Position numbers and translations under genes: made by a program. The notes below the pieces were generated by a model. The model was not told where the DNA came from. It saw only the letters and a program-made list of their open reading frames with translations, and did no database searches. A stretch of 64,000 nt of DNA, from assembly GCA_013141175.1 (NCBI GenBank), contig JABFRN010000001.1:496001-560000 (forward strand), given 5' to 3'. The stretch comes from Lysobacter sp. GTDB taxonomy: Bacteria; Pseudomonadota; Gammaproteobacteria; Xanthomonadales; Xanthomonadaceae. Below, piece after piece: positions 28,785 through 33,895 of the stretch (positions are counted from its first letter, which is position 1; each line of letters starts with the position of its first letter).

Positions 28785-28860
28785 AGCGCGTCTTTGTGCA
28801 TGGGTTTTTTCGATTAATTGAATCTATTAATGACACCCACGTGCTCACCAGACCTGAAGC

Positions 28861-28973
28861 GCCTAACAAATTCGTCCAACCAGTCTCGCATCGTGGCAGC
28901 GCCAGAGTGCTTGCGCTACGCTAGTGCGTAGTCTCTGCTACATCGCGGGGCGGCTTTACTGAAGTCGTTAGAA
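28861..28973 (+). repeat. Degenerate integron attC-like site (59-base element)
   Basis: It begins with GCCTAAC, a perfect R'' core (RYYYAAC), then AAATTCGTCCAAC. It ends GCGGCTTTACTGAAGTCGTTAGAA. The 3' end matches the classic attC 3' end GCGGCTTAACTCAAGCGTTAG at most positions, and the 5' end matches CTAACAATTCGTTCAAGC. The distance between cores (113 bp) is inside the attC range. The R' core GTTAGAA departs from GTTRRRY at its last base, so the site looks degenerate. It lies 95 bases before the phosphoesterase-STAND gene in the orientation that would make that gene the next cassette. Confidence 0.6.
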
Positions 28974-28985
28974 ATCATGGAGGTT

Positions 28986-29075
28986 ATGGTGACGAAGCCT
29001 GAAGTGGGCATACAACTGGGTTGGTCTATGGCATCGCTCCTGCTCTTATGGCGTGTCGGCAGGTTAAATGCGTAG
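28986..29075 (+). CDS. Possible leader ORF overlapping the STAND gene
   Basis: 29 codons: MVTKPEVGIQLGWSMASLLLLWRVGRLNA. It has GGAGG just before its ATG, though at very short spacing; an in-frame ATG at 28977 lies upstream. It starts directly after the attC-like site and its stop lies 6 bases inside the next gene, so translation could be coupled. No family is recognised. Confidence 0.3.
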   Translation: MVTKPEVGIQLGWSMASLLLLWRVGRLNA

Positions 29076-32000
29076 CGCGCTCACATGGCTTCATCTGTCA
29101 GACATCCACTTCAATCTCGCGACAGAATGGAGCGCCGAAAATGTCAGGACTTCTTTGATTGATTACCTCGACGCGTTATTCAAAGGCGATGAGTCTCTGT
29201 ATCCGGATCTTGTTTTCTGCACAGGAGATATCGCCTACGGGGAGACTGGTTCGTCACCGCTAAAAGACCAATACGCCAAGGCCAAGATCTTCTTCGATAG
29301 AATCCTTGAGATCTGTGGACGACCGGGAGCTCCGTTACCCCACGATCGCCTGTTCGTTGTCCCCGGCAATCATGACGTGAATCGGCGCAGCATCGATTCA
29401 GATGCTCAGGCAACGCTGACAAGGTGGGCGAGTGACGCGCAAACTCACATCAACGAAATCAATCAACGCTTCAACGACCGCACAACGGAGTTCAAGAACG
29501 CCATCAAGAGACTTGACGAGTACTCGGAATTCGTTAGCGACTACCTGCCGCATCAACATGATGCTGACGGACGGCATCATTATGCGCGAGTCGTGGAGAT
29601 TGACGATCTGAGCGTAGGCATAGTCGGGCTGAATTCCGCGTGGTCTTGCGCAGGCCCGGAGGATGACCGTAACCTGTGGCTGCCAGCAGAGTGGCAATTC
29701 AACGCCGCCGCAAGAACACTCGGCAACAAGGCTCACCTAAAAATTGGCATCGTCCATCACCCAGTCGCATGGCTGAACGCAGCCGACCGTACCACTACTT
29801 CCGCGCGCATTTCCACAGATGTTCACTTCTATCTTCACGGCCACGAGCACCATGCATGGGTTGAACCGACCCAAAGCCATGTCATGATCGCAGCTGGTGC
29901 AGTGGGTACAAATGCTACCGACGAGTTCGGCATTAACATCACGCGGATTGACCTCGAAAAATCCAAAGGAACAGTCCATCTTCACGGCCACAAGGCCGGT
30001 ACGAGCAATTGGATCAGCGCGCCCGTTGGGGGACATGCTCCCAGCGGCCAATGGGATTTCGATCTGCCGGTCGCGCTGCGCCGGGCACCTGCACTGGCAC
30101 CTGCACTGGCACCACTACCGGTAGCAACCAAGCGATCCAGCAAGCTATACGGGCGAGAGACACTAATCAAGAATGCAGTCGCGAAGCTGGACGAAACGCC
30201 TTTTTTATTTGTTTACGGTTTTCGGGGCAACGGCAAGACTGCCCTCATTCAGGAGTTGGGGGCACGATCGCCCCTGGCTCATGGGCAGCATGTGCGCATC
30301 GTGGCCAAGCTAGAGACGACAGCCGATGATCTGTTCCGCGAGCTGGCGGGGCTACTTGGTGAGACGGCAGAGCTGCCGAAAACTCCTGCTGGCAACGCTA
30401 GCGAGATCGCAAAAGACATCGCGCTTAGATATTCGGCTCCCAGCCACGCTTGGATCTGGATCGACCGTGCGCACAACCTGCTTGATGCCCAAGGCTTCCG
30501 TCATCAGAATGTTCGTGACTTGCTAACGGGCTTGCGGACGGCGACATCTTGGCACTGGGTGCTTGAGATGCGAGAAAGACCGCCTCAAGATCTTATCGGC
30601 ATATTTGCATCGGAATGCGAGGTTACAGGGCTCCGTAAGGAGGCGCTGCAAGAGTGTCTGGCTGATGCCGCTCCTGATGGGCGAGAGACCGATTGGCGCT
30701 ATAGCGGCAAGCCGTTGAAGGATATCTTTAGTTGGCTGGGCGGAGGCCATGGCGCGTACGCTCACCCACACGCAATTCAGCTCCTCATAGAAGTAGCGCG
30801 TGGGCGAAACGAAACTCCTTTGGAGGTGCACGAGCGGCATCGTAGCGACTTCGAGCAGCGAGTCGAGGACGTACTGTTGGCCGACCTCTACGATAATGTC
30901 CTAGTGGATCATGAACGTCGCTTGCTGCAGGCTCTGGCCTTGTATCGAGCGGCCATTCCTCACGACCACATGGATGCTTTGGAGGACGCACTTGATGCCA
31001 AAGGAGCACTGGACAGCCTTTACCGACGCTGTCTTCTCACAAGCAGCCCAAGCCACGAGCAGTTTTACCTGCATGGCCTCATAGCGAACTGGATTCGCAT
31101 TCGCAAACTGGGATACACGAACGGCGAAAGTGACGACGCGGGCTTCACAGACAATGACGAGAAAACAAAGCAAGATATCGCCTGCGAACTACACGCGGCG
31201 ATAGCCTCGTGTTGGCTTAACCAGCTCGGTCACTCACGACGTATCACCAACGTCAACATCACTCGCGCACTAGAGGCTTTTCATCACCTTATTGCTGCAG
31301 ATGATCCTGCCCGCGTTCAAAGCATTGCCGTAGAATTGCTGTCTGGCGATCTCGAGTGGGCCAGGAAGCGAATGAAAGCGTTTCAGGAGCGTCTCTTCAC
31401 GTCGAGAGCACCACTTGCTCAGCAGTGTGAGGCATTGGAGTATCGAGCCGTACTGGACCCGGATGACCACTCAGTTCAGCGTTTTCTCGGAGAGTGCTAT
31501 CAAAAGATCGATGGAAGAGCGAGCCGGAGGGCAGTGGCATGTTTCGAGACAGCCTGCAAAATGAGGCGTGACTTCCCGCAGTATTGGGCCAATCTCGGCA
31601 TCTCGGCCATTGCTCGCGGGCCCGACGCGGTTAGCGACTACCTCATGCGACTCGACTCACTGCAAGCCGACTGTCCAGAAGCGATCGATGACTATGTGAG
31701 AGCGATCCAAGCCGACTGCTTGGGGATCGTTGGCGCTCTGAGTAAGGCAGCCGTGCTGCGCATGGCCAGGATAAGTGCGGGCACTGCAAACTCAGCGATT
31801 TATGCCGACGAAGCCAAGGCGCGGCTGGACGCCAAGGACTACGGCGGCGCGCTTGATGTCCTTGATCTTGCGACCAAAAACGCTGCGGCCAGCGAATACA
31901 CTGAGGCCATCCGTGCCAGCGTCCTACAACGAACAGATCCGAGTAAGGCAGCTGTGCTGCGCATGGCCAGGATAAGTGCGGGCACTACAAACTCAGCGTT

Positions 32001-32562
32001 TTATGCCGACGAGGCCAAGGCGCGGCTGGATGCCAAGGACTACGGCGGCGCGCTTGATGTCCTTGACCTTGCGACCAAGAACGCTGCAACCAGCGAATAC
32101 ACTGAGGCCATTCGTGCCAGCGTCCTACAACGAACAGATCCGAGTAAGGCGGCTGCGCTGCGCATGGCCAGGATAAGTGCGGGCACTACACACTCAGCGT
32201 TTTATGCCGACGAAGCCAGGGCGCGGCTGGATGCCAAGGACTACGGCGGCGCGCTTGATGTCCTTGACCTTGCGGCCAAGAACGCTGCGACCAGCGAATA
32301 CACTGAGGCCATCCGTGCCAGCATCCTGCAACGAACAGATCCGAGTAAGGCGGCTGCGCTGCGCATGGCCAGGATAAGTGCAGGCACTACACACTCAGCG
32401 TTTTATGCCGACGAGGCCAGGGCGCGGCTGGACGCCGAAGACTACGACGGCGCGCTTGATGTCCTTGACCTTGCGGCCGAGAACGCTGCGGCCAACGAAT
32501 ACACTGAGGCCATCCGTGCAAGCGTCCCAAATCGAAAACTTAGGAAAGCTGGTGAAAACTAG
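29068..32562 (+). CDS. Calcineurin-like phosphoesterase / STAND NTPase / tandem-repeat protein (candidate defence protein)
   Basis: 1164 residues in three parts. Residues 5-310 are a metallophosphoesterase with the full metal set: LSDIHF (D12, H14), TGDIAYG (D54), PGNHD (101-103), GIVHHP (230-231) and HGHEHH (258-262). A Pro/Ala linker with a PALAPALAP duplication follows. Residues 360-600 form a STAND-type P-loop ATPase: YGRETLI, GFRGNGKT Walker A (384-391), WIWID Walker B (462-466), then VLEMRERPP and a GGGHGAYAHPHAIQLL segment resembling the GxP region. Residues 620-890 are helical and TPR-like; 892-1158 are four 67-residue near-identical repeats. STAND proteins couple recognition by the repeats to effector activation; a nuclease or nucleotide phosphodiesterase effector with a sensor tail is the layout of antiviral STANDs. 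The lower GC and mobile relics suggest transfer. The defence role is inferred. Confidence 0.85.
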   Translation: MRSALTWLHLSDIHFNLATEWSAENVRTSLIDYLDALFKGDESLYPDLVFCTGDIAYGETGSSPLKDQYAKAKIFFDRILEICGRPGAPLPHDRLFVVPGNHDVNRRSIDSDAQATLTRWASDAQTHINEINQRFNDRTTEFKNAIKRLDEYSEFVSDYLPHQHDADGRHHYARVVEIDDLSVGIVGLNSAWSCAGPEDDRNLWLPAEWQFNAAARTLGNKAHLKIGIVHHPVAWLNAADRTTTSARISTDVHFYLHGHEHHAWVEPTQSHVMIAAGAVGTNATDEFGINITRIDLEKSKGTVHLHGHKAGTSNWISAPVGGHAPSGQWDFDLPVALRRAPALAPALAPLPVATKRSSKLYGRETLIKNAVAKLDETPFLFVYGFRGNGKTALIQELGARSPLAHGQHVRIVAKLETTADDLFRELAGLLGETAELPKTPAGNASEIAKDIALRYSAPSHAWIWIDRAHNLLDAQGFRHQNVRDLLTGLRTATSWHWVLEMRERPPQDLIGIFASECEVTGLRKEALQECLADAAPDGRETDWRYSGKPLKDIFSWLGGGHGAYAHPHAIQLLIEVARGRNETPLEVHERHRSDFEQRVEDVLLADLYDNVLVDHERRLLQALALYRAAIPHDHMDALEDALDAKGALDSLYRRCLLTSSPSHEQFYLHGLIANWIRIRKLGYTNGESDDAGFTDNDEKTKQDIACELHAAIASCWLNQLGHSRRITNVNITRALEAFHHLIAADDPARVQSIAVELLSGDLEWARKRMKAFQERLFTSRAPLAQQCEALEYRAVLDPDDHSVQRFLGECYQKIDGRASRRAVACFETACKMRRDFPQYWANLGISAIARGPDAVSDYLMRLDSLQADCPEAIDDYVRAIQADCLGIVGALSKAAVLRMARISAGTANSAIYADEAKARLDAKDYGGALDVLDLATKNAAASEYTEAIRASVLQRTDPSKAAVLRMARISAGTTNSAFYADEAKARLDAKDYGGALDVLDLATKNAATSEYTEAIRASVLQRTDPSKAAALRMARISAGTTHSAFYADEARARLDAKDYGGALDVLDLAAKNAATSEYTEAIRASILQRTDPSKAAALRMARISAGTTHSAFYADEARARLDAEDYDGALDVLDLAAENAAANEYTEAIRASVPNRKLRKAGEN
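31741..32543 (+). repeat. Four in-frame 201-bp tandem repeats
   Basis: Copies begin at 31741, 31942, 32143 and 32344; the fourth diverges in its last 25 bases. Each encodes 67 residues starting SKAA-LRMARISAGT and centred on LDAKDYGGALDVLDLA, a helix-turn-helix TPR-like pair. Copies 1 and 2 differ at three residues, and copies 3 and 4 at about five before the tail. The unit length is a multiple of three, so copy number can change without breaking the frame. Confidence 0.95.
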
Positions 32563-32644
32563 GACCGACGCCTCCCGCTTTTTAGTAGCAGTCCGATCTG
32601 GAGTCCAATTTCCCAATGTAATGACCCAGTGCCTTCTGCACGGG

Positions 32645-32737
32645 TCAGGCCGCTAAGGCACACGCTTCGGCGGGTGTCTTCATGCCCAGCGCCTGGTGTG
32701 GGCGCCGGTGGTTGTAGAACTGGATCAAGTCGCTGAT
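32645..32737 (-). pseudogene. 3' remnant of an IS3-family-type transposase
   Basis: The minus-strand frame encodes only the last 29 or so residues, DLIQFYNHRRPHQALGMKTP then AEACALAA and a stop. This is the conserved C-terminal end of the DDE integrase core (YNxxRPHxxLGxxTPxE). The sequence upstream of this point (toward 32740 and beyond) does not continue the transposase, so the gene is truncated, with a short GATGACTGGG duplication at the break. Confidence 0.8.
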
Positions 32738-33237
32738 TTGGATGACTGGGGATGACTGGGACATCCACAGAAATCCCATGGTTCTCGCATTTTTCGCAAC
32801 ACCCACCAGAAACAATAAAGGCACTGCCACAGCAGTGCCCTTCGCTCAAATCAACAGTCGACCCAATAAATCACATCCAGACAGCTCGTTCTTTTGATCC
32901 GGGAATAATGGCTACCAGCCAATATCTTCACTCACCCCCAGCCAACCTCGCCGCAAACCCGACCCCCTTCAGCCACGCCTGTCCCAAGCGCTTGGCGATC
33001 TCGATCATGTCGTCCACTTCGCCGATCACGTACCAGTAGCCGGAGCCAACCGCCTTGGGAAAACCGGGACACCCACTTCGCGTGTGATGATGGAAGAATC
33101 GGGTTTTCCGGATTTTCGAGGAATGCGGGTGTCCCGAAAAAACACCGAAAAAAAACATCATGCGCGACGGCATGGTGGGGTTCGCTGCGCTCACCGCCGC
33201 CCTACGCAAACGCGCCCTGTTCCGTTAGGGTGGCGTC
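32738..33237. other. Gene-poor scar of the island
   Basis: No intact gene is supported. It contains a duplicated GGATGACTGGG near the transposase break. A perfect 8-bp stem (GGCACTGC...GCAGTGCC, 32820-32839) is followed on the minus strand by TTTATT and could act as a weak terminator. A minus-strand open frame covers 32928-33209, whose last 40 residues (YWYVIGEVDDMIEIAKRLGQ onward) look protein-like but match nothing I recognise. It may be the tail of a lost gene. AT-rich patches (TTTTTTCGGTGTT and similar) differ from the flanking chromosome. Confidence 0.5.
33065..33136. repeat. 10-bp inverted repeat enclosing 52 bases
   Basis: CGGGACACCC at 33065-33074 is mirrored exactly by GGGTGTCCCG at 33127-33136. 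The enclosed part also has a GAATCGGGTTTTCC / GGATTTTCGAGG partial symmetry. It could be the end of a lost mobile element or a REP-like unit. Confidence 0.5.
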
Positions 33238-33738
33238 ATGCACCATGCCGAACACTACCCCGCCATCTTCGCGTTCCTCGCCCGCATCGGCCTGCCCATC
33301 GCGGAGGAGACGCTGCCTGCGGACACCTTCCTGCCCGGCATCGTGCTGCGGGCCGGTGGTCTGGTGGTGGATCCCGGAAAGCTGACATGGCCCGGCGACC
33401 TGCTGCACGAGGCCGGGCATCTTGCGGTGTTGCCCGCTGCGCTGCGCGGTGATGCCCACGACAACCAGCTGAATCACGAAGGTGTCGAGCATGCCGGCGA
33501 GTTGGAGGCGATGGCGTGGGCGTACGCGGCAGCGGCCGAACTGTCACTGCCGACCAGCGTGCTGATCCACGACGGTGGCTACAACGGCAAGGCTCGGGAT
33601 CTGCTGCAGATGTACACCTTCGGTGTGTATCCCGGACTGCGGGGGCTGTGCGCGAGCGGGATGACGGCGGCGCACGGGTTCACGCCCGACAGCGGCCCGG
33701 TGAAGTATCCGCAGATGCTGCGTTGGCTGCGCGATTGA
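33238..33738 (+). CDS. Hypothetical protein with HExxH zinc-protease motif
   Basis: 166 residues. LLHEAGHLAVLP near residue 56 is a clear HExxH motif, and EHAGELEAMAWAYAAAAEL about 30 residues later carries a downstream Glu that could be the third zinc ligand, as in gluzincins. There is no signal peptide, so a cytosolic zincin or a degenerate relative is possible. It sits between the island scar and an intergenic repeat; its GC content matches the chromosome. No partner gene is evident. The true substrate and activity are unknown. Confidence 0.72.
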   Translation: MHHAEHYPAIFAFLARIGLPIAEETLPADTFLPGIVLRAGGLVVDPGKLTWPGDLLHEAGHLAVLPAALRGDAHDNQLNHEGVEHAGELEAMAWAYAAAAELSLPTSVLIHDGGYNGKARDLLQMYTFGVYPGLRGLCASGMTAAHGFTPDSGPVKYPQMLRWLRD

Positions 33739-33803: not shown

Positions 33804-33895
33804 CGTCGCCATCCCCGCGAAAGCGGGGATCCAGTGACTCTCATGCGTCCGGGCAATACTGAAGACACTGGATTCCCGCTTTCGCGGGAATGACG
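33804..33895. repeat. Paired palindromic repeat, copy B
   Basis: Left palindrome CATCCCCGCGAAAGCGGGGAT-CCAGTG and right palindrome CACTGGATTCCCGCTTTCGC-GGGAATGACG in opposite orientation. It is the same family and same internal GAAGACACTGGAT as 24811-24895. It lies between two convergent genes. Confidence 0.82.

Follow-up and report, generated by a model that had tools for sequence, protein, structure and literature searches.

An N-terminal metallophosphoesterase joined to an nSTAND6 NTPase and near-identical tandem repeats: a likely single-protein antiphage receptor at a variable site in Lysobacter sp.

The union of a metallophosphoesterase (MPE) with a STAND NTPase in one antiphage protein is known from DS-8 (Science 2026), a metallophosphatase-NACHT protein whose activity was shown by plaquing and active-site mutants; mutation of either the metallophosphatase or the NTPase removed protection (PMC13092281). 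An earlier prediction had placed calcineurin-type effectors together with STAND NTPases in counter-invader systems (PMC8195603), and the calcineurin-superfamily phosphoesterase is described as a common effector in other conflict systems (PMC7159879). The DS-8 work leaves open which nucleotide is degraded, what the phosphoesterase does, and the breadth of the module's use (PMC13092281). Here, we describe an MPE-nSTAND6-repeat protein encoded next to malQ in a 64,000-nucleotide stretch of Lysobacter sp. (contig JABFRN010000001.1, positions 496,001 to 560,000; referred to as the window). The original prediction had proposed the window protein as an undescribed conflict or antiphage system. The word "undescribed" has to be given up in view of DS-8, the PADLOC system PDC-S60, and the earlier predictions, but we consider it probable that the window protein is an antiphage STAND receptor in a single protein, with a phosphoesterase as its effector. 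Within the openly searchable literature, which leaves out most subscription papers and bioRxiv preprints, we found no relevant paper on nSTAND6, and metallophosphatase, NACHT, and anti-phage together led only to the DS-8 paper.

The open reading frame (ORF) begins with ATG, has no internal stops, and is intact, and the N terminus of its product aligned with the N termini of three full-length homologs. These homologs share the full layout and were found in a Desulfobulbus metagenome-assembled genome (L005; 55% identity, four repeats), in genome G679 (L083; 35% identity, two repeats), and on an IMG/VR contig (L120, recovered again as L143; 37% identity, two repeats). The original prediction had read from motifs a complete MPE at the N-terminal effector position, a STAND switch, and a C-terminal repeat array, and Pfam searches and repeat analysis bore out all three parts and their order. 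The MPE scored 32.1 bits with Pfam Metallophos, above the cut-off of 21.5 (E 2e-7), and its five metal-binding motifs (D12/H14, G53-D54, G100-N101-H102-D103, H230-H231, and G258-H259-x-H261) were invariant across 12 MPE domains (alignment A4). The structure model of the domain, with a predicted local distance difference test score (pLDDT) of 85.6 and a predicted template modeling score of 0.90, has the calcineurin-like fold. The P-loop belongs to nSTAND6 (E 5.1e-59, cut-off 27.7 bits) and not to a non-STAND family, and the same profile scored 184.6, 150.6, and 114.4 bits in L005, L083, and L120, respectively. The Walker A residues G384, G387, G389, and K390 were identical in all four family members. 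The WIWID motif cited by the original prediction is present in the window protein, with D466 as the Walker B aspartate, but it is not conserved: this position is Asp in the window protein and L005, His in L083, and Gln in L120, and WIWID is therefore no mark of the MPE-nSTAND6 family. Between the NTPase and the repeats lies a helical region whose TPR_11 score (17.3 bits) falls under the Pfam cut-off and whose profile matches TPR proteins in the PDB. The full-length structure model was poor (mean pLDDT 44.9) and usable for the NTPase core and repeats only, and the structure comparison made from it spans about residues 812 to 1164.

The likeness of the window protein to DS-8 (NF053861 DS8_antiphage, from DefensePredictor; PMC13092281) and PDC-S60 is that of a single protein with a homologous N-terminal MPE of about 300 residues, a central STAND-type NTPase, and a helical C terminus. 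Residues 9 to 303 aligned with the DS-8 profile (E 5.6e-32), and homology of the effector was also evident in the alignment with a DS-8 member. However, the match covered only the MPE (profile positions 1 to 276 of 994), and its 110.4 bits fell well below the 790 required. The NTPase is nSTAND6 here and nSTAND4 in the DS-8 member L085, and the 67-residue repeats lie outside the DS-8 match. Likewise, the window protein matched only positions 4 to 288 of 1,027 in PDC-S60, in contrast to two other proteins (L122 and L123) that matched nearly the whole model. A homologous MPE also occurs in DS-9 (NF053862, 47.1 bits), but that system, as far as the available text describes it, comprises two genes with a HAD phosphatase and no reported STAND (PMC13092281). 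The MPE of the CBASS-type MPE-SAVED effector (PADLOC PDLC00736, 90 bits) is homologous as well, but the sensor there is SAVED and not STAND, and the window protein had no Pfam match to SAVED at E ≤ 1. No Avs model was among the three PADLOC matches of the window protein at E ≤ 1, although the Avs content of that library was unchecked. The MPE-STAND kind is already known from DS-8 and PDC-S60, and the window family is a separate and rarer one, which by profile has the effector in common with them but not the NTPase or the repeats.

The distribution of the family is foreign and patchy and supports a tie to mobile elements. A core gene shared by all related strains, which the original prediction had named as one finding that would speak against defense, was not what we saw as far as tested: the full-length protein was present in 0 of 10 congeners, and alignment A2 gave some match in 18 of 348 genomes across the order but a full-length one in the host alone. 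Within the class, two of 369 genomes, those of the host and G679, had a strong nSTAND6 match, each time downstream of an MPE; a third genome, G636, reached 43 bits. Across the phylum, nSTAND6 exceeded the cut-off in 14 of 398 genomes and was strong in the host alone (best other, 36.9 bits). The weak matches, those of the 13 other phylum genomes and G636, were excluded as members. On viral contigs, no full-length relatives were found with the window protein as query (0 of 5 pattern stretches) or with alignment A1 (0 of 84), and alignment A5 gave 12 loci from 97 stretches, full-length on the L120 contig only. None of 50,697 phage records matched the window protein, and the 24 matches among 72,556 plasmid records were confined to the MPE part, with none at 80% query coverage. 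A pattern search of genome contigs was positive in 1 of 24 stretches; distant members such as L083 were missed by this search because its patterns were exact eight-residue words. As for surroundings, downstream of one of the three homologs, L005, lie genes for LmuA, LmuC, and LmuB (435.6, 175.7, and 594.1 bits; Lamassu-type) and for a tyrosine integrase; L120/L143 lies among phage tail-assembly (phrog_32) and primase (phrog_1139 and phrog_2249) genes; and L083 is only near a BrnT-family gene, with no other defense genes recognized among neighbors otherwise judged by eye only. A different MPE protein was found in 3 of 10 congeners (G003, G005, and G009), 29 to 30% identical over the MPE. The one in G003 (L048:5725-9441, minus strand; 1,238 residues) has an MPE, a P-loop NTPase, and TPR in the same order as the window protein, but its MPE is about 27 to 30% identical and its NTPase is not nSTAND6, giving AAA_16 and NB-ARC matches below the cut-offs.

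The MPE looks like a plug-in effector, judging from the architectures in which it occurs. The domain scan covered 10 of 22 MPE loci on viral contigs. Besides the nSTAND6 fusion of the viral contig L120, homologous MPEs were found with nSTAND4 (L122, L130, and the DS-8 member L085; the L123 match was subthreshold at 24.3 against 27), nSTAND5 (L124), NACHT and FGE-sulfatase (L121), SAVED (L127), and SIR2 (L084), and it is this variety of partners that gives the MPE the appearance of a plug-in module. No partner domain was recognized by the domain scan in L128, L129, and L131. The converse swap was seen in L054 (genome G081), where a TIR domain (Pfam TIR_2) sits on a DS-8-type chassis (568 bits, profile positions 289 to 994); this swap, together with the variety of MPE partners, suggests an effector position for the MPE, for which DS-8 provides the experimental backing. 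In L055 (G675), a DS-8-type NTPase and C terminus follow another N terminus, which resembles that of L054 by eye. The four nSTAND6-linked MPEs grouped as one clade (support 97) when a tree was built from 17 MPE domains, and recent borrowing of the MPE by the window protein alone was rejected because of this clade. The deeper branches mostly had support of 18 to 62, from which the order of exchange is not readable. An effector carried on several STAND chassis, a SAVED sensor, and SIR2 would be a general plug-in immune effector, and these natural fusions could serve in finding its substrate. The MPE-SAVED protein (L127:1-1689, IMG/VR contig) is a CBASS-type effector by PADLOC, with a whole-length match of 1,005 bits to the model "Effector; Endonuclease"; two DNA cytosine methyltransferase-like genes were noted nearby by eye. 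An SMC/RecF-type ATPase gene lies upstream of the MPE-SIR2-like fusion (L084:13861-15780, G636).

The window gene occupies a site that varies across the genus and is bounded by malQ on one side and by a small, conserved ORF at 33238 on the other (Table 1). A malQ match was present in 6 of 11 genomes, host counted, leaving five scorable congeners, of which three have unrelated inserts at this site and two are nearly empty. The interval from malQ to this ORF measures about 4.3 kb in the host, 5.8 kb in G002, 4.2 kb in G007, 5.5 kb in G005, 0.75 kb in G003, and 0.45 kb in G004. The four long inserts have GC contents of 0.563, 0.512, 0.457, and 0.466 against about 0.65 to 0.68 in most of the window, and the only DNA common to any of them is a 115-base segment that G002 and G007 share at 77%. 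These AT-richer, unrelated inserts show that the site gathers foreign genes. The lower GC content ascribed to the window gene by the original prediction was confirmed (GC 0.567; GC at third codon positions 0.598 against 0.824 in malQ and 0.840 in the AMP ligase gene), and the gene stands alone, as had been proposed: the insert holds the ORF and a transposase relic, and no partner gene was identified. The majority of cargo at the site is not known defense genes. Eleven congener insert genes were scanned with Pfam and seven of these with PADLOC, which returned one LmuA match (G005), one desaturase-type model, and no match for the other five proteins.

Table 1. Positions in the window of the MPE-nSTAND6-repeat gene, its parts, and adjoining features
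Feature	Position	Strand	Basis
Insert relative to congener G002, between malQ and ORF at 33238	28829..33171	.	Locus comparison
Decayed attC, same type as in the host integron	28861..28971	+	Profile of 23 host attCs
MPE-nSTAND6-repeat protein, 1164 aa	29068..32562	+	ORF call, Pfam
Calcineurin-like MPE domain, Pfam residues 8-262, modeled to ~340	29089..29853	+	Pfam, model, metal motifs, fold matches
STAND NTPase core nSTAND6, residues 360-505	30145..30582	+	PF25201, 199 bits
Helical region, NTPase to repeats, residues 621-888	30928..31731	+	Weak TPR similarity
Four tandem 201-nt/67-aa units, TPR-like solenoid, four helices per unit	31741..32544	+	Repeat analysis, structure model
C-terminal remnant of presumed IS3-like transposase	32645..32737	-	Translation

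Homology and context together make a defense role for the window protein likely. We infer a course of events in which the C-terminal TPR-like solenoid would sense a phage-derived or infection-induced molecule, and binding of this ligand would switch the nSTAND6 NTPase and drive oligomerization. The N-terminal metallophosphoesterases would thereby be activated for phosphodiester hydrolysis, most likely of a nucleotide or cyclic nucleotide, which would stop either phage replication or the cell. It is possible, though we think it unlikely, that the phosphoesterase of the same receptor is instead a nuclease resembling Mre11 or SbcD, which would cut nucleic acid of the phage or of the host after the STAND had switched. 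Fold comparison over the MPE domain argues against this, with SMPDL3A and Rv0805 about 3 Z higher, and the authors of DS-8 likewise argue from homology to SMPDL3A that the substrate would be a cyclic nucleotide (PMC13092281). The phosphoesterase could also be a regulator rather than a weapon, for instance one that clears a signal nucleotide and keeps the system off. Such a role would fit L084, which pairs the MPE with another enzyme, SIR2, so that the MPE is not invariably the sole catalytic domain. Nevertheless, the MPE occupies the N-terminal effector position on several STANDs in which no other enzyme was recognized, and loss of the DS-8 metallophosphatase removed defense, with derepression unreported in the available text (PMC13092281), so that we regard a regulatory phosphoesterase as improbable.

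The site itself suggests two further alternatives. With malQ as the upstream neighbor, the window protein might be a STAND regulator of the adjacent glycogen/maltose genes, in the manner of MalT, which has a STAND and TPR-like repeats. We hold this to be very improbable: the Pfam scan found no DNA-binding domain in the window protein, and homologs lie in quite different surroundings. A local regulator or core gene was rejected on the absence of the gene from congeners, five of which retain malQ. The other alternative is a genuine integron cassette, brought in by the host integrase. In its favor, the attC-like site named by the original prediction was recovered with the profile of host attCs (E 2.7e-12) 96 bases 5' of the start codon, the 64-kb window showing no other integron site, and the host carries an integron integrase gene (G000:C1:4142948-4143889; TIGR02249, 485 bits against 265) beside an array of 40 attC matches in 20.2 kb, one of them cut by the stretch end. 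Beyond it, the profile search, which took in the window and 11 further loci, gave this site read in reverse (E 0.045) plus five matches with E ≥ 3.4. However, a cassette gene has its attC on the 3' side in the gene's own orientation; the profile found none 3' of the window gene, and the upstream site, being in plus orientation, is on the wrong side for this gene and would serve a cassette gene upstream of it. The site is also decayed, scoring 44.5 bits against 79 to 117 for full-length array copies, and its bottom strand did not fold better than shuffled sequences (z +0.54). Integron cassettes are usually far shorter than this gene, and an insertion sequence relic is present as well. This relic, predicted downstream and found on the minus strand, reads ...FYNHRRPHQALGMKTPAEACALAA*; we take it to be IS3-like, and it has no second copy in the host genome. 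A cassette origin is thus doubtful at best, and we read the attC as a probable trace of an old integron event at the malQ site, not as proof of how the gene arrived. The tie to the host integron and to a genus-variable site shows where further single-gene defense cargo may be sought. In Xanthomonas, attC clusters distant from the integrase have been described (PMC12444791). The host chromosomal array (G000:C1 4143900-4155120 and 1-9000; L118 and L119) extends across position 1 of the contig record and continues beyond the stretch read.

The repeat array named in the original prediction starts at residue 892, and its units are 87 to 95% identical in DNA. The repeats are homogenized within each four-unit protein: protein identity among units was 78 to 96% in the window protein and 75 to 99% in L005, and among units 1 to 3 it reached 88 to 96% and 90 to 99%, respectively. 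Matching units of the two proteins, however, were only 45 to 49% identical, below their MPE (61%) and NTPase (58%). A tree of the units set those of the window protein apart from all others (support 98), and did the same for those of L005 with support 90. Given this clustering within proteins and lower identity between them, both four-unit arrays look independently homogenized. The units of the two-unit homologs were 36% (L083) and 40% (L120) identical to each other. Homogenization within each protein recalls, by analogy, the concerted evolution of fungal NOD-like receptors (NLRs), which share the order effector, nucleotide-binding oligomerization domain, and repeats, and for which at least 85% identity over 100 residues marks high internal conservation (PMC4986451), a mark that units 1 to 3 reach here. 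For fungal NLRs of this kind, positive selection is reported (PMC4986451). We did not see it here; nonsynonymous divergence was below synonymous divergence in 12 of 12 unit pairs, which counts against the full analogy. As a tentative extension that we do not expect to hold in all its parts, MPE-nSTAND6 proteins may form a separate antiphage family on prophages and islands, in the host at a genus-level insertion hotspot with integron help, whose sensor evolves by re-copying the 67-residue unit through unequal crossing-over or conversion in each lineage, as a bacterial counterpart of the repeat-shuffling fungal NLRs. The basis for re-copying is the 75 to 99% identity within proteins against 45 to 49% for corresponding units of the window protein and L005, whose overall identity is 55%. 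Near-identical tandem repeats would offer a testable model for how a bacterial immune receptor might shift its target.

Some smaller observations concern the malQ site and its surroundings. The G005 insert (L045:7943-12548, minus strand) encodes an FAD-type oxidoreductase with 128 bits to the N-terminal part of a PADLOC LmuA model, beside proteins of 222 and 777 residues that had no Pfam or PADLOC match. In G007, cytidylyltransferase-like and NUDIX proteins are adjacent (L044:10694-12676, minus strand), possibly acting in nucleotide or NAD metabolism. Positions 33807 to 33895 of the window hold an inverted repeat resembling repetitive extragenic palindromic elements, with 33-nt arms that are 88% complementary and 23 nt apart.

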